Shown here: positions 37,565 through 62,783 of the stretch, piece after piece
How positions within the stretch are numbered: the stretch's first letter is position 1
Layout of the letters: each line of letters opens with the position of its first letter
Origin: Halanaerobiales bacterium
GTDB lineage: Bacteria; Bacillota; Halanaerobiia; Halanaerobiales; DTU029
Direction: 5' to 3'
NCBI GenBank assembly: GCA_029981855.1
Contig: JARRCS010000024.1
Location: 1-64,000 of the forward strand
DNA length: 64,000 bases
Program-made: the position numbers and the translations under genes
Notes under the pieces: model-generated
Databases searched by the model: none
Seen by the model: the letters and a program-made list of their open reading frames with translations, nothing else
Told to the model about the DNA's origin: nothing

Positions 37565-39418
37565 ATGAACGCACTTGAAATTAAAAACCTAACAGCATTT
37601 AACACAGACGGATATTTTATAAGGGATATTAACCTGATATTAAAAAAGGGGGAAATTCAAGCCCTGATTGGAGAGAATGGTTCGGGGAAAAAGACCTTTA
37701 TTGAGTCACTTATGGGATTTATAAATGATATTACGGGTAAAATTATTTATGAAAGCAGAAATATTTCTTTGGACCATTCATTTCATGGCCTTAAGGGGGT
37801 TTCATTTATCGAGCAAGTTCCTAACCTGGTTGATAAATTATCTGTTGCTGAAAATATAAATTTATTAAATTATTCCCGGATGGGAATTTTTTCAATAATA
37901 AACTGGAAAAAGGTAAATAAAAATGCCAAAAATTTATTAGAAAAATTTGGTATAGAGCTGGATCCCCAGAAACTAATTAAAGATTTGTCAAGGGAAGAAA
38001 AGAAAATAGTGTAGATTGCTAAAGCATTTCTGCAGGACAACAAAATAATTGTGATGCATGAACCGACAGACGGACTAAGCGTGAAAACCTTGCAGAAATT
38101 ATATAAAATGTTAGTAGAACATAAAAAAAGAGGAGGAAGTATACTTTTTGTAACCAAACAATGGGAAGAGGCACTGAAAATAGCCGACCGGATAACCGTC
38201 TTGTCGAATGGAAATATTATCGGAACCCTTCCATCAGAACAGGCCAAAAAAAACCCCCGAAAGCTATTAAATATGATGTTAGGGGTTCCGAATTTTGAAA
38301 AGGGTACTAATAAAAACAGTAAGGAGAATTTACAGATGCTTGATGCCGTATTTAAAGCGGCTGAATTTTTAACATCTGAATATGAACTGAAGGATGTATT
38401 AATCTTTATTGCCAAACATGCTACCAAGATTATGAACGCCGATAACTGTATTTTAAATCTGATTGATGAGAAAACAGATACCATTATTGATACGGTAACT
38501 TATAGTACGAATAATAAAGTAATCGCCAGACTGAAAAAAGAAGCTCTTCTTGATATTGTTGGGAATGACTTATATTATACTACCGAACAGGACAGCGAGT
38601 TTTCAAGTCTTTTTGAAGAAAAAAATAATGTTAAAACTATGATCTGTGTTCCGGTACTGATCCGATCACAAGTGACGGGCTGTATTCAACTTTATTATGA
38701 AAACTTTTATATATATACAGAAGAAGAGGCTAAATACTTATCGACCCTGGCAAGGCAGGCTGCGATAGCTATTGAAGAGACTAGATTGATGGGGAGATCT
38801 GCTTTATTAAGGGAGAGCCACCACCGGATAAAGAATAATCTACAGTCCATTATTAGTTTGATTACACTGCAAAAGGATTTTATTGATCGAGGAAATAAGG
38901 ATTCTCTGGACAAGATACTTAATAAGATTATCGCTCGGGTTAAAAGTATTGCTTCTGTTCATGACTTGCTATCAAAGAATGAATTAGGCAGGAGTATCAT
39001 CAATATCCAGGAAATAGTAAGGGTTATTATCGACTTTTATAATATTGATAGCAGTATAAATATAAAACTTGATCTTGATGATATTTTTATCTCCTATAAC
39101 AAAGCAACTGCCATAGCCCTTATTATCAATGAACTGCTTCATAACTGCTTTGAACATGCTTTTCCCGGGGGTAATAGCGGGAATATATCTATTAAATGTG
39201 TGCAAAAAGAAGAGGCGATATTTTTAGTAGTTGAAGACGATGGAATAGGGTTGCCAGAAGATTTTGATCCTAATGATTTACGAGGTTTGGGTTTATCCAT
39301 CGTTAATTCTATTATCATCAATGAATTTCAGGGGGAGATGAATTTTGTCCAGAAAAGTAACAGGGAAGAGGGAACAAGAATAGAAATTATCTTATCAGCT
39401 AAAAGATGTTTATTTTAG
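37565..39418 (+). pseudogene. degenerate ABC-ATPase/GAF/HisKA_2 histidine kinase fusion with amber codon
   Basis: One frame of 618 codons interrupted only by TAG at 38012-38014 (codon 150). Codons 1-240 resemble the first ATPase half of RbsA but are degraded: Walker A is 'GENGSGKKT', the signature is 'LSREEKK' and Walker B is 'IIVMHEPTDGLS'. The amber replaces the residue before 'IAKAF', usually glutamate. Then come a GAF-like domain (about 255-400), a HisKA_2 H-box 'ESHHRIKNNLQSIISLI' (near 417) and HATPase ('NELLHNCFEHAF', 'VVEDDGIGLP', 'GLGLSIVNSI'). It pairs with the adjacent ANTAR regulator. The kinase half could be made from ATG 38051 or by readthrough. Confidence 0.75.
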
Positions 39419-39434: not shown

Positions 39435-40025
39435 ATGCAGAAGCCATTGCGGGTACTAATAGCGGAAGATGAACACCTTATTCTCATGGGGATAGAATCC
39501 ATTTTAAAACGTCTTGGTCATTCAATAATTGCTAAAGCAAATGATGGAGAGGAAGCGATAGAACTGGTTCTGGAGAAAAAACCTGACTTGATACTGATGG
39601 ATATTAACTTGCCCAATCTTGATGGGATTGAAGCTATCAAGAAAATAAATCAAGCGGTTGTTGTACCAGCAATAATAATCAGCGGATATCATGATAGAAA
39701 ACTTTTAGAGAAGGCAAAGGAGGCTGGTGTTTTTGGTTATCTTGTCAAACCGGTTGATGAAAGAGAACTTAAAGCTGCGATTGAGATATGCATTGCCCGT
39801 TTTGAGGAATTTCAGTCTTTGAAGAAGGACTACGAACATTTAAAGGATGCTCTGGAGGCACGAAAATACATCGAAAGGGCAAAAGGTATCTTAATGGACA
39901 GGAATAATTTAAAGGAGCCAGAGGCAATGAAGGCCCTCCAAAAAAAGAGTCGGGACAGTAACAGAAAGATTGTCGAGGTGGCAAAAGAAATCATTAAAGC
40001 AGATAATATACTGAGATTGAACTGA
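39435..40025 (+). CDS. response regulator with REC and ANTAR RNA-binding domains
   Basis: 196 residues. The receiver domain has the acidic pair 'IAEDE', phosphoacceptor Asp in 'PDLILMDINLP', 'IIISGY' and 'LVKPVDERELKAAIEI'. After a coiled linker comes the ANTAR domain 'ALEARKYIERAKGILMDRNNLKEPEAMKALQKKSRDSNRKIVEVAKEII', which binds paired hexaloop hairpins and prevents transcription termination, as in EutV. Such a hairpin pair and terminator lie in the leader immediately downstream. Partner kinase: preceding gene, 16 bases upstream. AAGGAGG before the ATG. Confidence 0.93.
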   Translation: MQKPLRVLIAEDEHLILMGIESILKRLGHSIIAKANDGEEAIELVLEKKPDLILMDINLPNLDGIEAIKKINQAVVVPAIIISGYHDRKLLEKAKEAGVFGYLVKPVDERELKAAIEICIARFEEFQSLKKDYEHLKDALEARKYIERAKGILMDRNNLKEPEAMKALQKKSRDSNRKIVEVAKEIIKADNILRLN

Positions 40026-40116
40026 GATATTATCACAAAATATGGAGACACCTCAAGCTATTGAGAGCAATATTTAATTAATGAAGTATAAAAGGAGATT
40101 TATAACATTCGATGGT

Positions 40117-40145
40117 TTGACATTATTTTTAAAATATCTTATAAT
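40117..40145 (+). promoter_or_regulatory. consensus promoter of the glycyl-radical operon
   Basis: TTGACA (40117-40122), 17 bases, TATAAT (40140-40145). Transcription would begin near 40152 and produce a 240-base leader containing two hairpins and a terminator before the activase gene. Confidence 0.75.
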
Positions 40146-40177
40146 TTAATCAGAATAAAAAATAAATATTTTATTCT

Positions 40178-40229
40178 CTGCTTATGGCAAGCAGGGGTCT
40201 AGTAACATAAGTTGCCTATGGTTGGTAAC
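40178..40229 (+). promoter_or_regulatory. putative ANTAR antitermination target (paired hairpins)
   Basis: Hairpin 1: CTGCT (40178-40182) / AGCAG (40190-40194) with loop TATGGCA. Hairpin 2: GTTGCC (40211-40216) / GGTAAC (40224-40229) with loop TATGGTT. Both loops contain A-x-x-G (ATGGCA, ATGGTT), the A1/G4 spacing known for ANTAR targets, although each has one extra T at its 5' side. They stand directly ahead of a terminator and directly after the ANTAR gene. Confidence 0.6.
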
Positions 40230-40248
40230 ATATATTGAGTTGAGGTCA

Positions 40249-40287
40249 AGGGTGCCTTATATCTGTGATATAGGGCACCCTATTTTT
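40249..40287 (+). terminator. intrinsic terminator in the operon leader (attenuator)
   Basis: Stem AGGGTGCCTTATAT (40249-40262) / ATATAGGGCACCCT (40268-40281), nearly perfect, then ATTTTTATT. As it lies after the 40117 promoter and before the activase, it would stop transcription by default. Confidence 0.8.
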
Positions 40288-40392
40288 ATTATCATAGGAA
40301 TTATTTGTAACAAGCCTAATTATTACCTACATTAATATTCTGGCTATGACTCGAAGTTAATTTATTCAGGAGTTTAATGGTGGTGAAATGAT

Positions 40393-41334
40393 ATGAACCT
40401 AGGGGAAAACGAAGGTATTGTAACCGAAATTGAAAGATATGCTATTTATGATGGGCCTGGGATAAGAACCGTGGTATTTTTGAAGGGGTGCAATCTAAGG
40501 TGTGCCTGGTGTGCTAACCCTGAGACCCAGAATCTTTACCCAGAAATGGGTTTTTTTGTCAATAAATGTATTGGCTGTTTAAAATGTATAGAAGCCTGTC
40601 CTTATGATGCTTTAAAATATGAGGATGGGAAATTTATTACTGACAGGAATATCTGCATGGAAAAATGCTATCATAACGAAAGGGAGTTAAGCTGTGTAGC
40701 GGCCTGTCCAGGTGATGCAAGAGTTCAGTACGGTAAAATTATGACCGTTGAGGAGATTTTAGAGGAGGTACTAAAAGATAAATCAGTTTATGATAGGACG
40801 GGTGGTGGTGTAACCCTTTCCGGTGGTGAACCATTTTTCCAAAAAGAGTTCATGTTTAAGTTGCTTAAGGCCTTGCGAGCCAACAGGGTCAGAGTTGCAA
40901 TAGAAACCAGCGGTTTTACCGACTGGGAGAATATAAACATGATTTTAGATGACCTGGATTTTATCTATTATGATATAAAATCTGCTGATCCCGTTTTGCA
41001 CAGGAAATTTACCGGAGGCTCTAATGATTTAGTTCTTGAGAATGTCATAAAGGTTTCCGAGTATGCTAAAAAAAATGGACTACCAATCATTTATAGAATT
41101 CCCGTTATTCCTAATTTTAATGACTCTAAAGAGGAAATAGAGAAAATTACTAAATTTATAAAGAATGAACTTTACAGAAAGGATTATGTGGAGTTGCTTT
41201 CCTATCATACTCTGGGTCTAGGCAAATATGAAAGTCTGGAAAGGGATTATTCACTCACGAAGGAAAAAATAACGAAAGAAAAAATCAAAATGCTTAAAGA
41301 GGTAGTTAGTGAGGCAGGATTAAAGGTCTTATAA
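40393..41334 (+). CDS. glycyl radical enzyme activating protein (radical SAM)
   Basis: A 313-residue radical SAM enzyme that abstracts a hydrogen from the glycine of its partner enzyme. It has the cluster motif 'CNLRCAWC' (CxxxCxxC), then two ferredoxin-like 4Fe-4S sets ('CIGCLKCIEACP' and 'CMEKCYHNERELSCVAACP') typical of activases for dehydratase and decarboxylase glycyl radical enzymes, and 'GGVTLSGGEPFFQ' for SAM binding. The partner is the split glycyl radical enzyme 2.6 kb downstream. ATG 40393 follows GGTGGTGAAATGAT. Confidence 0.93.
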   Translation: MNLGENEGIVTEIERYAIYDGPGIRTVVFLKGCNLRCAWCANPETQNLYPEMGFFVNKCIGCLKCIEACPYDALKYEDGKFITDRNICMEKCYHNERELSCVAACPGDARVQYGKIMTVEEILEEVLKDKSVYDRTGGGVTLSGGEPFFQKEFMFKLLKALRANRVRVAIETSGFTDWENINMILDDLDFIYYDIKSADPVLHRKFTGGSNDLVLENVIKVSEYAKKNGLPIIYRIPVIPNFNDSKEEIEKITKFIKNELYRKDYVELLSYHTLGLGKYESLERDYSLTKEKITKEKIKMLKEVVSEAGLKVL

Positions 41335-41357: not shown

Positions 41358-42875
41358 TTGATTAATAAAGATGCAGTAATAATGAAAAATGTCACCAAAG
41401 AGTTTCCCGGTGTTGTAGCCCTAGATCAGGTTTCTTTAAATATCAAAAGGGCTGAAGTTAGAGCATTAGTAGGAGAAAATGGTGCTGGTAAATCGACACT
41501 AATAAAGGTATTAAGCGGTTATTATCCGCACAGCTCATTTAGTGGAGAGTTATATATAAAGGGAGAGAAAGTGAAGTTTAATACTCCAGGTGATGCTGAA
41601 CAAGCTGGTATTGCCGTTATTCATCAGGAAATGTCCCTGCTGAATCAACTATCGATTGCAGAGAACTTATTTGTTGGCAGGTGGATAAATAAAAGGGGAA
41701 TAGTTAACTGGAAGAAAATTTATCAAAAATCAGAAGAGATACTAAATAAGCTTGACCTGAACCTAGATCCCGGTATCTTGGTTAAAAATCTAGGTGTTGG
41801 CCAGAAACAGCTGATCGAAATCGGGAAGGCACTACTGCTAGAAAATGATATCTTGATCCTTGATGAACCAACAGCAGCTCTAACTGAGAGGGAGACGGAG
41901 AAATTATTTAAGATAATAAAAAATTTAAAGGAAGATGGGGTTACGATAATTTATATTTCACACCGCCTTGAAGAACTATTTGAAATCGCCGATACAGTAA
42001 CTGTACTGAGGGATGGTAAATATATAGGAACCAAAGATGTTAATGAGACTACCGAAAAGGATATTTCAACCATGATGGTTGGTCGGGATATCAAAGATAT
42101 GTACCCCAAAATAAATGTTAAAAGAAGAGACCCGGTTTTAAAAGTGAAAAATTATTCGGTTTTTGATCATGGTCGCAAGGGTTACCTGGTTGAAAATGTT
42201 TCCTTTACTGCCTACAGAGGTGAAATACTATGTTTTACCGGTTTAATCGGGTCAGGAAGGAGTGAGCTGTTCAAGTCAATCTTTGGGGCTTTGGGAAACG
42301 ACCGGGAAGGTAGGGTTTTTATTGATGGTCAAGAGGTAAATTTCAAAAGCCCTTATAATGCCATTAAAGTAGGGATGGCTTACTTAACAGAAGAAAGAAA
42401 GAATGATGGATTGATACTGCCGCAGGATGTGAAAACCAATATTTCACTGGCTGTTTTGAAAAAAATTAGTAAGCGTGGAATACTAAATTTAAAAGATGAA
42501 AAAAAGATGGCAGAAGATTATGTTAAGAAACTTGATATACGAATTCCAGAGTTACAGACCAAAGTGGAAAAATTAAGTGGTGGAAATCAGCAGAAGGTAG
42601 TTTTAGCTAAATGGCTGGCTAGTGGGCCGAAAATACTGGTTTTAGATGAACCGACTAGGGGAATTGATGTCGGCGCTAGGGTGGAAATATATAATATAAT
42701 TAATCATTTAATTAAACAGGGTGTTGTGATAATCATTATTTCTTCCGATATGCAGGAAGTTCTGGGAATCAGTGACCGTATTATTGTTATGAGAGAAGGG
42801 AAGATTAACGGGGAATTTGAGCGAGGTGATGCCACTGAAGAGAAGATTATCACTTGTGCTATCGGTGTAAATTAG
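41358..42875 (+). CDS. sugar-type (CUT2) ABC transporter ATPase
   Basis: A 505-residue double-ABC protein like RbsA/XylG. First half: 'GENGAGKSTLIKVLSG', 'LGVGQKQLIEIGKALL', 'ILILDEPTAALT'. Second half: 'GLIGSGRSELFKSIFG', 'LSGGNQQKVVLAKWLA', 'ILVLDEPTRGIDVGAR'. The degenerate ABC module of the upstream kinase resembles the first half of this protein, hinting that the sensor may mimic or contact the transporter. The start is TTG 41358, with GGGGGAGG five bases upstream. Co-transcribed with the activase. Confidence 0.92.
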   Translation: MINKDAVIMKNVTKEFPGVVALDQVSLNIKRAEVRALVGENGAGKSTLIKVLSGYYPHSSFSGELYIKGEKVKFNTPGDAEQAGIAVIHQEMSLLNQLSIAENLFVGRWINKRGIVNWKKIYQKSEEILNKLDLNLDPGILVKNLGVGQKQLIEIGKALLLENDILILDEPTAALTERETEKLFKIIKNLKEDGVTIIYISHRLEELFEIADTVTVLRDGKYIGTKDVNETTEKDISTMMVGRDIKDMYPKINVKRRDPVLKVKNYSVFDHGRKGYLVENVSFTAYRGEILCFTGLIGSGRSELFKSIFGALGNDREGRVFIDGQEVNFKSPYNAIKVGMAYLTEERKNDGLILPQDVKTNISLAVLKKISKRGILNLKDEKKMAEDYVKKLDIRIPELQTKVEKLSGGNQQKVVLAKWLASGPKILVLDEPTRGIDVGARVEIYNIINHLIKQGVVIIIISSDMQEVLGISDRIIVMREGKINGEFERGDATEEKIITCAIGVN

Positions 42876-42937
42876 ACTTGGTATTATTAGGTAATCAATA
42901 TAGAGTTTAAAAAAGATAAATTATGGAGGAGTTTGAG

Positions 42938-43926
42938 ATGGAAAAGATTACTGAGATAGAAAAGATTACACAGGATAAAAATAGAAATAACTTGAGTAAG
43001 GTATGGGGAAAAACCAAGATATTCATTTCAAATTATTATCTGTATATTTCATTTATATTGATTATCGTTATCGGTTCAATATTATCACCCCTTTTTTTAA
43101 ATCCGATAAACATTATCAATGTTTTATTGCAAAATTCTGTTTTCACAATTATTGCTATTGGGCAGCTTTTTGTAATTTTAACTGCCGGGATTGACCTTTC
43201 GGTAGGTTCAATTGTTGCCTTATCTGCTTCTCTTATCGCTGGTTTTTTACAGGGCGGAATATCACCGGTATTAGCAATTTTGATTGTAATTATAGTGGCC
43301 GGTATTACTGGTTCAATCAGTGGTACCATTATTTCTTACGGGAAGGTAGCCCCCTTTATTGTAACCCTTTCGATGATGTCAATTGTGAGGGGTATTGCCT
43401 ACATCTACCAGACCGGTGCAGATAGGCGTATATATAATATGGATTTTATTAATGGTGTAGCGGGGCAAATTAAAGGTATACCGCTGCCGATAATATATAT
43501 GTTTCTACTTGCTCTGCTAATGAATTTTATTTTACGAAGAACGGTTTTTGGTCGGGCGGTTTACGCTATAGGCGGTAATATGGAGACTTGCCGCCTGGCT
43601 GGAATTAGGGTTAACTTTTTTTAATCGGTGTATATACTATCTCTGGAATTATGGCCGGTATTGGGGGGGTTATCCTGGCCGCCCGATTGAATATGGGAAC
43701 AGCCCTGGTGGGAATGGGTTATGAACTGGATGCTATTGCCTCAGTTGTTATCGGTGGAGCTGCATTAGTTGGTGGAAGTGGAACGGTTCTTAACACGGTT
43801 ATCGGAGCCTTTATCATTGGTATTCTTAACAATATACTGAATCTACTAGGGGTTGCATCATACCCGCAGATGATTGTCAAAGGATTGATTATCCTGGTAG
43901 CAGTTCTGGCTAGGGGTAAGGAATAG
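42938..43926 (+). pseudogene. sugar ABC permease, frameshifted in a T tract
   Basis: An RbsC/XylH-like permease whose frame breaks at seven T (43616-43622). The first part ends '...CRLAGIRVNFF' at TAA 43622-43624. One extra T would read on as 'FFLIGVYTISGIMAGIGGVILAA' and join the second part (43651-43926, with 'LDAIASVVIGGAALVGGSGT'). Together they give a full-length protein near 329 residues with all family motifs ('TAGIDLSVGSIVALSASL', 'GKVAPFIVTLSMMSIVRG'). Either a real mutation, a slippage-prone tract or a sequencing error. ATG 42938 follows GGAGGAG. Confidence 0.88.
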
Positions 43927-43971: not shown

Positions 43972-46269
43972 ATGCCAGGTGAATACCACTTTGGGTTAAA
44001 TACTAAACCAGAACGTACTGAACGAATTGAAAAATTAATAGACTATGTTAATTCAATTGAGCCCGGGATATGTCTTGAACGAGGAAGGTATATAACCCAG
44101 GTTTATAAGGAAAATGAATATGAATCGATTGTCATGAAGAGGGCCAAAAGTCTGGAAAAAATATTGGAAAACATGTCAATCTATATTATGCCGGGCAGCC
44201 TGTTTGTTGGGAACCAGGCTTCCAAACCGCGTTGGGCTCCATTGTTCCCTGAATATGAGGTTAAATGGTATGAAGAAGAAATAATAAACGGAGATCCCAT
44301 GTATCCCTGGGAAAGGCCTGCCGATGCCTTTCAAATTGAAAATAAAAAGGAAAGTTTAAAAGAAGCACAGGAAATCTTCAACTGGTGGAAAGGAAAAACT
44401 CACCGGCAGAAAGTTTATAATAACCTGCCGGAAGAGTTTGCTATCGTTCAGGATAAAGTTAGTGTCCTCAATATTTGGGATTATATCCAGGGGGGCGTAG
44501 GACACTTCAGTCCTGGACACAGATGGTTAATAAAAAATGGTTTGAACACTGTAATAGAAATTGCAGAAGAAAAGTTGGAGAGTCTTGGCTTTAGCAGTAG
44601 TGAAGAATTAAAAAAGCGTGAATTTTATAAGAGTGTCATTCTATCCTGTAAAGCAGTAATTAATTTTGCCCGGCGATATGCAGAACTAGCCCGGAATATG
44701 GCCAGGCAGGAAACAGATGATGAACGCCGGCAGGAGTTATTAAGAATTGCTGAGACCTGTGAACACGTACCGGCAAATCCGGCTCGAAGTTTTTATGAGG
44801 CCTTACAGTTTATGTATTTTATTCACCTTGTTGTTCAGATTGAGGATAGCGGGCAGGGGATATCTGTTGGCCGCTTTGACCAGATTCTATGGGATTATTA
44901 TAAAAATGACCTTGATAATGAAATTTTAACCAGGGATGAAGCACTGGAACTGATTGAAAACTTCTTTGTCATGATCTATACAATTAATAAGATTAAGAGC
45001 TGGGACTGTACCGATTATTTCAGAGGTTCTCCCATGTTCCAGAATTTAACCATTGGTGGTCAGGACCCGGTTACCCAAGATGATGCAACCAATGAACTAA
45101 CGTATCTTGTGCTAGAGGCCACTGCCAACACCAGGCTTACCCAGCCGTCGGTTACAGCGCGTTTCCATAAGAAATCACCGGAAGAATATAAGTTGGCGGT
45201 GGCAAAGGTAATTAGATTGGGAACCGGTTTCCCTGCCGTATTTAATGATGAACTCTATATCCCGGCCCTGATAAACCGTGGTTACGAGATTAATGATGCC
45301 TATGATTACTGCATTATTGGCTGTGCAGAGGCCGGCCCGGCCGGACTGCTTGCCGGTAGGACAGGTGGTGCATGGTTAAATCTTCCGAAAATACTGGAGC
45401 TAACCCTTTATAATGGCAAGGACCCTCTCACGGGAATTCGGCTGCGTAAGAATAAGAATGATAAAGACCTTTCTGAATTTATATCCTTTGAAGAACTCCT
45501 TGATGTATTCTATGATCAATTAGATTATTATCTAAAGATGGAAGTAGCCTTTGAGAATATTATAGACTATACCTATGAACAGGGCATCCTGGAGCCGTTT
45601 TCTTCCATAGCTGCCTGTCCGGAAACCTCTCTGGAAAGGGGTAAAACCTTAAGAGAAGGTGGAGGAAAATACGACTTTACCGGCCAACAAACCATTGGAA
45701 TTGCTAATGTTGCGAACAGTTTATATGCCATTAAAAAACTTGTTTTTGATGATAAAGTTCTGACTGGTGCTCAGCTTCTTCATGCAATTTCAACTGATTT
45801 TAGTGATAAAACTACTGACCCTTCGGGCCCGGAAATTAATAAGCTATGTGAGTCCGTAGATAAGTATGGTAATGATGTCGATGAAGTAGATTTTCTTGCC
45901 CGGGATGTTTTACGGTTTGTATCCTCGGAGCTTCCAAAATATAAAAATACTAGATATAAGAGGGGGCCAATTGGCTGCACAATGCATGCGTCAACCACAA
46001 CCGTTTCAAGTAATGTAGCCTTTGGTAAATCAGTCGGAGCCATGCCGGATGGACGCCGAAAGGGTAAACCCCTGGCCGATGGACAATCACCAATGCGTGG
46101 AACTGATGTGAAGGGTCCAACAGCAGCTGTAAATTCCGTTTCGAAGTTAAATAATATACTGCTGTCCTGTGGTTCATTATATAATCTTAAATTTAATCCC
46201 AAAGATTTGAGGTCAGGTCCAGTTTTGAAAGGTAGAGAGGAGCTTAGTCAAGCTAAATTTGCTGAATAA
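43972..46269 (+). CDS. glycyl radical enzyme body lacking the glycyl-radical domain
   Basis: 765 residues of the pyruvate formate-lyase/diol-dehydratase fold. The active-site loop 'DYCIIGCAEAG' puts Cys451 (thiyl radical) two residues from Glu453, as in dehydratase-type enzymes (GCVE). Other motifs are 'SPMFQNLTIGGQDPVTQDDATNELTYLVLEA', 'LGTGFPAVFNDELYIPALINRG' and 'IGCTMHASTTTVSSNVAFGKSVGAMPDGR'. The protein stops after 'LYNLKFNPKDLRS' plus 19 unrelated residues, exactly where the C-terminal radical domain should begin. That domain is encoded by the next gene. Probable reaction: radical dehydration or elimination of the imported compound. Confidence 0.88.
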   Translation: MPGEYHFGLNTKPERTERIEKLIDYVNSIEPGICLERGRYITQVYKENEYESIVMKRAKSLEKILENMSIYIMPGSLFVGNQASKPRWAPLFPEYEVKWYEEEIINGDPMYPWERPADAFQIENKKESLKEAQEIFNWWKGKTHRQKVYNNLPEEFAIVQDKVSVLNIWDYIQGGVGHFSPGHRWLIKNGLNTVIEIAEEKLESLGFSSSEELKKREFYKSVILSCKAVINFARRYAELARNMARQETDDERRQELLRIAETCEHVPANPARSFYEALQFMYFIHLVVQIEDSGQGISVGRFDQILWDYYKNDLDNEILTRDEALELIENFFVMIYTINKIKSWDCTDYFRGSPMFQNLTIGGQDPVTQDDATNELTYLVLEATANTRLTQPSVTARFHKKSPEEYKLAVAKVIRLGTGFPAVFNDELYIPALINRGYEINDAYDYCIIGCAEAGPAGLLAGRTGGAWLNLPKILELTLYNGKDPLTGIRLRKNKNDKDLSEFISFEELLDVFYDQLDYYLKMEVAFENIIDYTYEQGILEPFSSIAACPETSLERGKTLREGGGKYDFTGQQTIGIANVANSLYAIKKLVFDDKVLTGAQLLHAISTDFSDKTTDPSGPEINKLCESVDKYGNDVDEVDFLARDVLRFVSSELPKYKNTRYKRGPIGCTMHASTTTVSSNVAFGKSVGAMPDGRRKGKPLADGQSPMRGTDVKGPTAAVNSVSKLNNILLSCGSLYNLKFNPKDLRSGPVLKGREELSQAKFAE

Positions 46270-46358: not shown

Positions 46359-46619
46359 ATGTTGCCTAAGGTTGAATTAAAGTCTAATGAAGAAACGGGT
46401 TTAAGGAAGTTCGTAGGTTTAATCGACCATTACTTTGCTAATGGTGGTATGCAGATGCAGTTTAATATGGTAAGTAAAGAGACTCTTCTGGATGCTCAGA
46501 AGCATCCAGAAAGATACAAAGATTTACTGGTTAGGGTAGCGGGATATAGCGCCTATTTTACTCAGCTAGCCAAAGAGGTACAGGAAGATATAATTGAAAG
46601 AACAGAAGAGCGATTATAA
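46359..46619 (+). CDS. separate glycyl-radical subunit
   Basis: An 86-residue protein corresponding to the C-terminal radical domain of glycyl radical enzymes: '[20 protein letters not shown]', '[31 protein letters not shown]' and '[13 protein letters not shown]'. Gly62 in RVAGY is the predicted radical site. It has its own ATG preceded by AAAGGGGGTG and begins with ten residues not shared with the family, so it is a designed or stabilised separate cistron, unlike a simple frameshift. It resembles YfiD/GrcA in size, but its sequence continues the upstream enzyme. An upstream in-frame ATG at 46299 is unlikely. Confidence 0.88.
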
Positions 46620-46641: not shown

Positions 46642-47712
46642 ATGAAAAGAAGAGGATATTTATTAATTTTGGCTGTAGTTTTATTATCGGTTTTCGTGGG
46701 ACAGCTTGCCCTTGCTGCTGTAAAGTTACCCGAAATAACTCATGAAATGTTAACAGTAGCGCCGGATCAACCTGTCGGAGAAAAAGGTGTTTTTGCCGAT
46801 GATAAACTTGTAATCGGTTTTTCCCAGAGGAGATTAGCCGGAAGTGAATGGTATGAGAACCTGATAAACGTAGCCAAAAAAGAGGCAGAACACCTTGGAG
46901 TAGAGTTAATCGTTTTCGATGCTCAGGGTGATATTGCGAAACAAATCTCTGATATTGAAACTTTAATTGCCAAACAGGTTGATGCTCTGATTGTAAACCC
47001 ACAGGATTCTGAAGGTGTTTTACCTGCTATAAAAAAGGTTCATGAAACAAATATTCCCTTAGTTGTTGTTAATAGTGCTTTAAGTCCGGAAGGTGCTCCT
47101 TTTACCTTTGTATCAACAGATGCTTTCGGCACCGGGTTCAAATCTGGTCAGGAACTGGCTAAAGCTGTTGTTGAAAAATGGGGAAATAAAAAGGAAGTTA
47201 AGGCAGCTATAATAAGCGGTTATCCTAAGGAACTTGAATCTGACCGCAGGAGATGGGGACAAATTGCTGGATATACCGATTATATGCTTGAAAAATATGG
47301 GAGAAACAACCTAAACATTGTAAGTCTGAAATTTGGACACTGGTTACCTGATGTAACAATGCCTATAGTACAGGATATAGTAATGAGAAATCCTGACCTT
47401 GATATAATATTTGCTGCTTGCGATGGAACAACTCAGGGTGTAGTTAGTGGGCTTCAGAGCACCGGTAAGCTCGGTGATATCCTGATTGGCTCCATTGATG
47501 GCCGTAAATCCGTAATTAAGTGGATGATGGAAGACGATAAGGGTATCGCTGTTTCAGTTATGAACGACCCACGTCTGATGGGGAAATGGGCAGTATTTTT
47601 CGCAGCATATAAGGCAATGGGCGCTGTTACACCTTCTCAGTTCTTTGTTCCTAATCCGGCTATAACTCCGGAAAATGCTGCTGAATATTATAACCCTGAT
47701 TCTTCATATTAA
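46642..47712 (+). CDS. sugar ABC transporter substrate-binding protein
   Basis: A 356-residue exported protein with a signal peptide (residues 1-26, 'LLILAVVLLSVFVGQLALA') and the Peripla_BP_4 fold: 'IGFSQRRLAGSEWYENLINVAKKEAE', 'DIETLIAKQVDALIVNPQD', 'IIFAACDGTTQGVVSGLQ' and 'IGSIDGRKSVIKWM'. About 30 extra residues precede the domain compared with RbsB. It serves the ATPase and permease upstream. Placement after the enzyme genes, with its own AAGGAGG, suggests it is the last gene before the terminator. Confidence 0.92.
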   Translation: MKRRGYLLILAVVLLSVFVGQLALAAVKLPEITHEMLTVAPDQPVGEKGVFADDKLVIGFSQRRLAGSEWYENLINVAKKEAEHLGVELIVFDAQGDIAKQISDIETLIAKQVDALIVNPQDSEGVLPAIKKVHETNIPLVVVNSALSPEGAPFTFVSTDAFGTGFKSGQELAKAVVEKWGNKKEVKAAIISGYPKELESDRRRWGQIAGYTDYMLEKYGRNNLNIVSLKFGHWLPDVTMPIVQDIVMRNPDLDIIFAACDGTTQGVVSGLQSTGKLGDILIGSIDGRKSVIKWMMEDDKGIAVSVMNDPRLMGKWAVFFAAYKAMGAVTPSQFFVPNPAITPENAAEYYNPDSSY

Positions 47713-47750: not shown

Positions 47751-47780
47751 AGAGGACCCGATTACAGGGTCCTCTTTTTA
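47751..47780 (+). terminator. rho-independent terminator of the glycyl-radical operon
   Basis: Perfect stem AGAGGACCC (47751-47759) / GGGTCCTCT (47767-47775) followed by a T run. It is well formed and marks the end of the operon. Confidence 0.9.
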
Positions 47781-49565: not shown

Positions 49566-49835
49566 CTAATTAAAACGTATTTCAAGTTTTTTACCTAATG
49601 CATGAGCTACTTTATCTAGTAATTCTATGCTTGGATTGTAATCATCACTTTCCAAGCGAGAAATTGCAGACTGTTTAGTTCCGATTTTCTTAGCAAGTTC
49701 CTTTTGACTTAGACCCTGTTCCAGCCGCAATTTAATAATCTGTCTCTTGATATCATATAGAACATTTAACTCATCATATTCTTTTTTTACCTCTGGGTTA
49801 TTTAAAATTAAATTTTTTACATCTTTATGATTCAT
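49566..49835 (-). CDS. XRE-family antitoxin (HigA-like)
   Basis: An 89-residue protein with a C-terminal helix-turn-helix, 'LRLEQGLSQKELAKKIGTKQSAISRLESDDYNPSIELLDKVAHALG'. It is encoded after the toxin, the order typical for HigBA. It should neutralise the toxin and repress the shared promoter. ATG 49835 follows AAAGGGGTGACGAAA; the longer frame to 49940 overlaps the toxin. It overlaps the toxin gene by 11 bases. Confidence 0.85.
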   Translation of the reverse strand: MNHKDVKNLILNNPEVKKEYDELNVLYDIKRQIIKLRLEQGLSQKELAKKIGTKQSAISRLESDDYNPSIELLDKVAHALGKKLEIRFN

Positions 49836-50196
49836 TTTCGTCACCCCTTTGAATATACTTTTGTAATCTGTTAAGCGCAATGTTAATCTCCTGTTTTGGA
49901 GTTTTATTAGATTTTTTCTTAAAGCCATGAAGTAAAACAAATTTGCCGTTTTTAATAGTAAAAAAGAGAATACGAAATATATTTGAACTATGCTTAATTC
50001 TAAGTTCCCATAAATTATTATTGGTGCCTTTAAGTTTTCTTATGTGAGGCATACCTAAAAAAAGACCGAATTCTTCAAGCAAGTCAATTTCTCTTAATAT
50101 TTTAGCTTGTTCTTTAGGAGAATGTTTCATTATGAATTCGACAACAGAAGATTTATTATTTTCTTCATAATAAATAATAGTATACAATTGGACCAA
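49825..50196 (-). CDS. RelE/HigB-type mRNA interferase toxin
   Basis: A 123-residue toxin of the phage-derived Gp49/HigB group: 'VVEFIMKHSPKEQAKILREIDLLEEFG', 'MPHIRKLKGTNNNLWELRIKHSSNIFRILFF' and 'KFVLLHGFKKKSNKTPKQEINIALNR'. Such toxins cleave mRNA on the ribosome. The start is probably TTG 50196 or TTG 50187. The promoter's -10 is only about 17 bases upstream, so the message may be almost leaderless. Downstream partner: the XRE antitoxin. Confidence 0.85.
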   Translation of the reverse strand: MVQLYTIIYYEENNKSSVVEFIMKHSPKEQAKILREIDLLEEFGLFLGMPHIRKLKGTNNNLWELRIKHSSNIFRILFFTIKNGKFVLLHGFKKKSNKTPKQEINIALNRLQKYIQRGDENES

Positions 50197-50398: not shown

Positions 50399-50689
50399 AT
50401 GAATGGTGAGGATATTATTACTTTTTTTAAAGAACACAAATCTGAAATAGAAAGATATGGAGTTGAAAAAATAGGATTATTTGGCTCGTATAGTAAAAAT
50501 CAAGAAAAAGAGAATAGCGATATTGATGTTTTAGTTCAATTTAAAGAAGGAAATAAAACTTTTGATAATTATATGGACTTAAAATTTTATTTAGAGGATA
50601 AATTTAATAAGGAAATAGATTTAGTAATAGATGAGAATATAAAAGAAGATTTAAAAAACGAAATTCTAGGAAGTGCTAGATATGCGTAA
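50399..50689 (+). CDS. MNT-type nucleotidyltransferase antitoxin
   Basis: A 96-residue minimal nucleotidyltransferase. The motif '[23 protein letters not shown]' provides the GS-x-DxD core with two aspartates, and '[10 protein letters not shown]' a third. Proteins of this type AMPylate the partner HEPN toxin and silence it. AAGGAGG lies about 12 bases upstream of ATG. It overlaps the HEPN gene by eight bases, the usual MNT-HEPN order. Confidence 0.9.
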
Positions 50690-51005
50690 TTATAAAGTAT
50701 ATTTAAATGACATATTGAATTGTATAAAAAAGATCGAAAAATATACAGAAGATATTTCATATAATGAGTTTAATAATAACGAATTAATTCAAGATGGAGT
50801 TATCAGAAATTTAGAAATAATAGGTGAAGCAGTAAAAAAATTACCTATGGATGTCAGAAATAATTATCCCAATGTTCAATGGAGAAAGATTGCTGGATTA
50901 AGAGATATATTAATTCATGATTACTTTGGAGTTGATTTAGAAATTATTTGGGATGTTATAGAAAACAAAGTTCCCAATTTAAAATGTACTATAATGTACT
51001 ATTGA
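50682..51005 (+). CDS. HEPN-domain (DUF86) toxin
   Basis: A 107-residue helical protein with the HEPN RNase motif R-x4-H-x-Y in 'RDILIHDY' and family context '[36 protein letters not shown]'. The tyrosine of the motif is the site AMPylated by MNT partners. It would cleave RNA (often tRNA) when freed. ATG 50682 is favoured by AGGAAG upstream; GTG 50673 is also possible. Confidence 0.9.
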
Positions 51006-62361: not shown

Positions 62362-62397
62362 AAAAAACCCCTGTTTAGTCTAAAAGACCAAACAGGA
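62362..62397 (-). terminator. expression-platform terminator of the fluoride riboswitch
   Basis: On the minus strand CCTGTTTGGTC (from 62397) pairs with GACTAAACAGG, followed by GGTTTTTTC. It begins within the last paired bases of the aptamer, so ligand binding and terminator formation would compete. Confidence 0.8.
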
Positions 62398-62442
62398 GCC
62401 ATTATCCATAATTAGGAAATTTTTGGCGAGCCCCATCACCAT
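62390..62442 (-). ncRNA. fluoride riboswitch (crcB motif) aptamer
   Basis: On the minus strand the sequence starts with GGTGATGGGGCTCGCC (62440-62425), continues with AAAAATTTCC, and ends with GGATAATGGCTCCTG (to about 62393). This matches the fluoride aptamer pattern: conserved GGxGATGG, a CGCC pairing and a late TGGCTCC pairing back to form the pseudoknot. An intrinsic terminator follows and crcB is next, so fluoride would favour readthrough. Confidence 0.88.
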
Positions 62443-62783
62443 ATAATTTAAAAATATATTATATAACTAGTTTATAAAAGTCAAGTGTTAAAAGTAAATT
62501 TATTTTGAAAGATTAACATAAATTTCTGCTAAGTTAATTTTGCTTATTCACACAGATTATTTTTTCGTAAATCTGTTTGTTCTTTCACCATTAGCTCGTC
62601 TGGAGTAATCTTCTTTAAATTCAGATCATCTTTATACCCCGGTAAATAAGGGTATATGTATCAGAATATAATATTTTTAAGTCAAATTAAATAATTGTCT
62701 GAATTTTATGAGGGGCTTTTCGAGCGGATTCCTAGGTAAGTTTGCTTAAATTTGTAGAATAGAGTGTTGACAGGTGCTACCTA

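Follow-up and report, generated by a model that had tools for sequence, protein, structure and literature searches.

A predicted ANTAR-controlled attenuator with seven-base hairpin loops in front of a glycyl-radical and sugar-transport operon

The published targets of ANTAR proteins are hexaloops with A at position 1 and G at position 4 (PMC3369931; PMC8934654; PMC8164766). In the eut leaders of Enterococcus faecalis, which are controlled by EutV (PMC3369931, PMC8934654), a single promoter precedes two small hairpins, the second of which overlaps an intrinsic terminator, and linkers of 5–12 nt have been reported between the two hairpins (PMC3369931). Among the EutV residues that engage the RNA, Tyr164 stacks on G4, Arg175 touches the stem and Met172 plugs the loop, possibly also gauging loop size (PMC8934654). 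Dual hairpins with a wide variety of regulons were also found in a survey of actinobacterial ANTAR-target RNAs, with linkers of 2–25 nt and mostly without a terminator; that survey demands hexanucleotide loops, and heptaloops lie outside its search (PMC8164766). As far as they are covered in PMC3369931, which cites them, the nasF leader (NasR) and the amiE leader (AmiR) likewise combine ANTAR-domain antitermination with a hairpin before a terminator, their loops being A1/G4 hexaloops and their signals nitrate and amide.

The locus described here was found in a window of 64 kb, the whole stretch of DNA that was analysed. Like the eut system, it has a regulator with receiver and ANTAR domains, a pair of small hairpins separated by a short linker, a loop G4, a second hairpin (P2) that overlaps an intrinsic terminator and a single promoter before the leader, and with the actinobacterial RNAs it shares the dual hairpins, the variety of regulons and a linker within their span. 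Unlike eut, where loops have six bases and A1, loops of the window class mostly comprise seven bases and carry the A at position 2, and a U.G closing pair is common. Furthermore, Tyr164, Met172 and Arg175 are replaced, the kinase bears an ABC-ATPase-like domain, and sugar ABC transport, joined in two genomes by a glycyl-radical enzyme, takes the place of ethanolamine or nitrogen use as target. NasR and AmiR, as described in the source cited above, also differ from the window regulator by lacking its residue signature.

The leader follows the gene for a response regulator with receiver and ANTAR domains (39435–40025; plus strand, as are all features of this locus given below). Its promoter (TTGACA-17-TATAAT, 40117–40145) matches the sigma70 consensus at 12 of 12 positions and ranks first among 53 promoter-like sites within 12.6 kb, in agreement with the consensus promoter claimed in the original prediction. 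The promoter had been placed immediately after the ANTAR gene and does lie downstream of it, but starts 91 nt past the stop codon. Transcription is expected to start near 40152. The first hairpin, P0 (40175–40197), has the sequence TCTCTGCT-TATGGCA-AGCAGGGG and is able to close further to a 5-nt loop, and the second one, P1 (40211–40229), consists of the stem GTTGCC/GGTAAC and the loop TATGGTT. Both had been recognized before, as had a strong intrinsic terminator, which extends over 40249–40290 with a 15-bp stem (40249–40281) and a U-tract. A third hairpin, P2 (40241–40259; stem TGAGGT/GCCTTA, loop CAAGGGT), is present in the minimum-energy fold of the nascent transcript; located within the terminator arm, it had been missed. 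P1 and P2 comprise 6 bp each, are separated by 11 nt, which is within the range for eut (PMC3369931), and thereby correspond to the canonical arrangement of tandem hairpins with 3 bp or more and a short linker. Since bases 40249–40259 belong to P2 as well as to the 5' arm of the terminator, an overlap found in canonical ANTAR targets, P2 and terminator cannot coexist. The original prediction had taken the first two hairpins as the ANTAR pair, a pairing that was ruled out because neither overlaps the terminator; the working pair is P1 and P2, with P0 as an extra upstream hairpin. The loop of P0 conforms to the pattern of the other two, and this hairpin may load additional regulator. A comparable upstream hairpin was observed in the leaders L033 and L045, so that at least three leaders carry three ANTAR-type hairpins in a row, all with this loop pattern.

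Computed energies amounted to about -7.5 kcal/mol for P1, -4.5 kcal/mol for P2 and -25 kcal/mol for the terminator. When the growing transcript was folded without constraints up to 40259–40270, P0, P1 and P2 formed; past this point, computed folding of the full-length leader favoured the terminator. A stretch of 141 nt with hairpins and terminator was more stable than each of 200 shuffles (z -3.9), and the leader is intact in the window genome, unlike the kinase and permease genes. This layout is that of an ANTAR antiterminator, with termination by default and rescue when P2 is held. It is extremely improbable that P0 and P1 represent mere structural noise and the terminator serves just to end transcripts of the kinase-ANTAR operon; the terminator is strong alone and an independent upstream promoter is unnecessary for such a role, but a perfect promoter stands just before the hairpins, there is no start codon from promoter to terminator, and the dual hairpin recurs at the exact offset in relatives, with compensatory changes.

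A covariance search of this leader and of homologous loci had been proposed as a check of the attenuator. A covariance model (R2) made from 14 sequences of relatives, with the window excluded, matched P1 and P2 (40211–40259) with 35.7 bits and an E-value of 2.7e-6, which was the sole strong match in the 2.59-Mb genome; the second-best match reached 19.2 bits. When model R1 was run over 38 genomes of the order, all matches with E <0.05 were located directly behind the ten M-type ANTAR genes, those of the window type, and four of the matched loci (L004, L006, L033 and L036) had been absent from model building. In the 28 genomes without an M-type ANTAR gene, no R1 match was better than E 0.057. 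E-values of the short-calibrated model are unreliable at face value, and they were distrusted because a match in G106, finally rejected, had a good one. It belongs to a group of matches elsewhere (L179–L181, L186, L188–L193, L203 and L204) that were located inside reading frames and were considered to be due to chance. A wider regulon in the window genome was also rejected as there were only weak second matches of 18–19 bits, and the one inspected (C32:48740) was devoid of a terminator.

A fixed descriptor, composed of P1, linker, P2 and overlapping terminator, was positive behind 14 of 20 M-type ANTAR genes, compared to 0.025 expected from dinucleotide shuffles, and negative in the other 6 regions. 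Behind other ANTARs it was positive in one of 36 cases for the remaining non-Met172 proteins and in none of 62 for the classic Met172 proteins. Covariation of the hairpins in relatives, the absence of which was to count against the prediction, is present: P1 is paired in 100% of the 14 sequences with changes on both sides in 4 of 6 pairs, and for both helices together 28 cells were changed versus 8.5 in shuffles, although most aligned leaders had been picked by stem strength and A2/G4 loops, which inflates counts of covariation and of loops. P1 covariation was also present in an 11-sequence version of the alignment. Independent tests are the positions of matches by gene, the relatives left out and the window left out.

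Computation yields the anatomy, conservation and covariation of the element, its association with a single ANTAR subfamily and the exclusion between P2 and terminator, and it supports that the dual hairpin belongs to the adjacent regulator. A search of 40000–40420 against Rfam gave no family at gathering score (best sub-threshold match 21/42 bits). If the attenuator answered to a non-ANTAR input, it would be a metabolite riboswitch or the target of another antiterminator protein. Alternative folds are possible, and the first computed fold had the P1 region paired with sequence downstream of the terminator; nevertheless, we regard this as very improbable, as the leader matches no Rfam family, nothing pocket-sized is conserved besides the two small hairpins, and the element accompanies a single ANTAR subfamily in different families and phyla, genomes without this subfamily being devoid of it. 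The prediction of an ANTAR-controlled attenuator before the glycyl-radical and sugar-transport operon is strongly supported at the sequence level, with homologous loci keeping the order kinase, ANTAR gene, dual hairpin, overlapping terminator and operon, and P1 showing compensatory changes.

The loops were compared in a set of 46 from 22 leaders, in which all but one pair is complete and for which the inflation by selection mentioned above applies. Position 4 is G in 46 of 46 loops, as in canonical targets. Position 2 is A in 45, the exception being the P1 loop CCTGTTT of L172, and 45 loops have a purine at position 5, which is G in 31. The canonical A at position 1 was found in one loop only, and the window loops of P1 and P2 start with U and C. 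Seven bases are present in 36 loops, including those of the window, six in 6 and eight in 4, which is distinct from the canonical hexaloop. In both hairpins of the class the closing pair is mostly U.G. Inner pairs are possible in L040–L042, down to a three-base loop; loops like TATGGTT and CATGGAC are unable to close inward, and an open loop is therefore the usual state. The aligned loops indicate that the class has its own register, where G4 is the same, the A is shifted from position 1 to 2 and the loop is one base longer on average. As seven-base A2/G4 loops are the rule in the subfamily, the published hexaloop code does not fit, and the window element was set apart from the dual-hexaloop family because two tested defining features are lacking.

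In the original prediction, the seven-base loop was read as an imperfect hexaloop with an extruded U. An ordinary hexaloop target, with one extruded base per loop and unchanged recognition, would account for the dual hairpins, G4, P2 within the terminator and the adjacent ANTAR gene, which are all classic (PMC3369931, PMC8934654), and also for the 6 of 46 loops that do have six bases. However, extrusion of base 1 moves the essential G to position 5, where no more than 31 of 46 loops have a G, position 4 being the invariant one. Besides the rarity of A1, regulators of the class lack Tyr164, Met172 and Arg175, and true A1..G4 hexaloops do exist in this order, close to the Met172-type ANTARs L032, L034 and L035, and were also found near the Met172 ANTAR L025. 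We therefore consider it unlikely that these loops are disguised hexaloops and favour a distinct register.

The regulator of the window matched PF00072 with 100 bits and PF03861 with 72.9 bits, both over cut-off, and it is the only ANTAR protein encoded in its genome. Its AlphaFold model (pLDDT 94.5) was employed in a structure search, and EutV (6wsh) was retrieved first at full length with a Z of 22.6 over 189 residues, a match that carries no information about RNA contacts. The alignment of its ANTAR domain with that of EutV is free of gaps. The RNA contacts R142, K143, K149 and E160 of EutV are kept as R143, K144, K150 and E161 and are present in nearly all of 120 relatives, and the loop-holding residues Y164, M172 and R175 are replaced by M165, R173 and N176. 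Orthologues share the signature EAMxxLQxxS[RNQ]xxNxK, and the receiver residues D12, E13, D56 and K105 are invariant across the subfamily. Among the 120 sequences, the non-Met172 set includes Phe164 members from Chloroflexota, Deltaproteobacteria, Planctomycetota and Nitrospirota. In the tree, a single branch (support 99/89) splits all loci with heptaloop leaders from all loci with hexaloop leaders, and EutV is on the hexaloop side. Because the tree requires only one change, the match between residues and loops counts as one evolutionary event; it is consistent but unreplicated, and a repeated co-evolution was dropped. Residue 164 was also dropped as determinant of the loop class since L053 has Phe164 together with heptaloops. 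L003 combines Met164 with Met172, and no target was found there; in viral contigs, no relative of the regulator was detected.

These data probably reflect two ANTAR recognition codes on either side of an old and well supported split in the response-regulator tree. Hexaloop readers would have Tyr or Phe164, Met172 and Arg175, whereas the heptaloop class, with a non-Met172 residue and Asn175, would read N-A-N-G-R loops; it occurs in Bacillota, the phylum of the window, in Chloroflexota and Nitrospirota and in deltaproteobacterial genomes, and in the lineage of the window it would connect kinases fused to an ABC-ATPase with sugar uptake and glycyl-radical metabolism.

In the relatives, a kinase with ABC-ATPase-like, GAF, HisKA_2 and HATPase domains is followed by the ANTAR regulator, the leader with its overlapping terminator and a sugar ABC operon, which encodes binding protein, ATPase and permease; transketolase, alcohol dehydrogenase and sugar kinases are examples of additional genes, and a divergent kinase is seen in some Bacillaceae. 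Within the M-type lineage, most targets are sugar ABC operons, and a glycyl-radical enzyme is the target only in the window and in one relative of the same family, L166, in agreement with the predicted extension of known ANTAR targets. In L166, the leader directly precedes a fused glycyl-radical enzyme, followed by activase and permeases, and in the window it precedes the activase, ABC genes and then a two-gene glycyl-radical enzyme. Outside the M-type lineage, element and overlapping terminator were found before a FadL-type outer-membrane protein in L176, a Nitrospirota MAG, and before a PocR-GAF-GGDEF protein in L178. Both also precede proteins of the CXXCH haem type, in L202 and, with a CSCHTMH-bearing protein recognized by eye, in L070, and a DHO_dh-like gene in L172. 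In the deltaproteobacterial MAGs G447 and G451 (L178, L202, L211–L214) several matches to the heptaloop model per genome were observed, two of them with clear overlapping terminators, which suggests that the Phe164/Gln172 ANTARs of these genomes run multi-operon regulons.

Upstream of the regulator, an ABC-ATPase-like N-terminal piece of a sensor kinase (37565–38014; PF00005) ends at an in-frame TAG (38012–38014) and is followed by the GAF-HisKA_2-HATPase part of the histidine kinase (38051–39418; Pfam). These pieces are fused in relatives, and the orthologue of L166 (1959–3800) is an intact ABC-GAF-HisKA_2-HATPase protein of 613 aa that aligns across the window stop. A histidine kinase with an N-terminal sugar-ABC-ATPase-like domain, followed by GAF, HisKA_2 and HATPase, is conserved beside the ANTAR subfamily in the window (37565–39418) and in L160–L169. 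By eye, the Walker A (GENGSGKK) and LSGGQ (LSREE) motifs of the window kinase look degenerate. The kinase might dock on the permease and in this way sense transport.

The first gene past the switch encodes a glycyl-radical enzyme activase of the radical SAM type (40393–41334; TIGR02494 over cut-off). It is followed by genes for a sugar ABC transporter ATPase (41358–42875; two PF00005 domains, xylose/ribose-type NCBIfam models below equivalog cut-offs), a sugar ABC permease (42923–43926; PF02653 on its first piece), the large part of a glycyl-radical enzyme (43972–46269; PF02901, 62% identical to L166), the glycyl-radical domain, small and separately encoded behind a ribosome-binding site of its own (46359–46619; PF01228, 73% identity to the C-terminal end of the fused enzyme in L166) and a sugar-binding protein (46642–47712; PF13407), and a terminator-like hairpin (47751–47775) is located at the end of the operon. 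The permease gene is frameshifted near 43617 at a run of seven T, and a tblastn search with the L166 permease crosses two frames there; this frameshift and the TAG in the kinase gene may mean that the system is decaying here or may be assembly errors. In the two-gene glycyl-radical enzyme, the large part stops at 46269, and a strong ribosome-binding site precedes the 86-aa gene of the domain. In G132, a genome of another family, the enzyme is split at the identical junction (L217, about 1250–1760), and other close matches in 299 genomes of the phylum were fused. A broken gene was dropped as explanation because stop and separate domain gene recur at this junction. No paper on such a split was found in the literature search, and the enzyme scored below every substrate-specific NCBIfam cut-off.

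Elsewhere in the window, a fluoride riboswitch (62386–62449, minus strand; 34.6 bits versus a gathering score of 34) and, by eye from translations, two toxin-antitoxin-like pairs were observed, one of an HTH protein and a RelE/HigB-like protein (49566–50196, minus strand) and one of a minimal nucleotidyltransferase and a HEPN-like protein (50399–51005, plus strand).

By analogy with EutVW, the following mode of action is proposed. Polymerase would start at the promoter 40117–40145 or arrive from the kinase-ANTAR genes, and by default the leader transcript would end at the terminator stem 40249–40281. A sugar-related signal would reach the kinase, perhaps via its ABC-like domain, and the kinase would phosphorylate the ANTAR response regulator, which then dimerises. 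The dimer would take nascent P1 and next P2, and P2, once held, would keep 40249–40259 out of the terminator stem; the terminator would fail and readthrough into the genes for activase, sugar ABC transporter and glycyl-radical enzyme would follow. In the loops, a U.G or C-G closing pair followed by N-A-N-G-R, mostly within seven bases, would be read by an ANTAR surface without the Tyr164, Met172 and Arg175 of EutV. Signal, phosphorylation and its requirement, binding and readthrough are postulated from the known system, and a role of the substituted residues in loop reading is likewise a proposal. It is very likely that the leader works as an ANTAR antiterminator opened by the regulator encoded just upstream.

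In our literature search no paper joined ANTAR with a heptaloop, weak evidence of absence as subscription journals were outside its coverage; a class of ANTAR targets with shifted, mostly seven-base loops and altered RNA-contact residues is apparently undescribed so far. The class would have been missed because the published ANTAR target searches that we examined demand six-base A1/G4 loops. It supplies RNA partners for a large ANTAR subfamily and offers a natural test of the roles of Met172 and Tyr164 in loop recognition, where plug, size gauge and stacking partner have been proposed (PMC8934654). The covariance model can be used on any genome for the mapping of regulons. Sugar ABC transport and glycyl-radical metabolism would be added to nitrogen and ethanolamine use as processes under ANTAR control.
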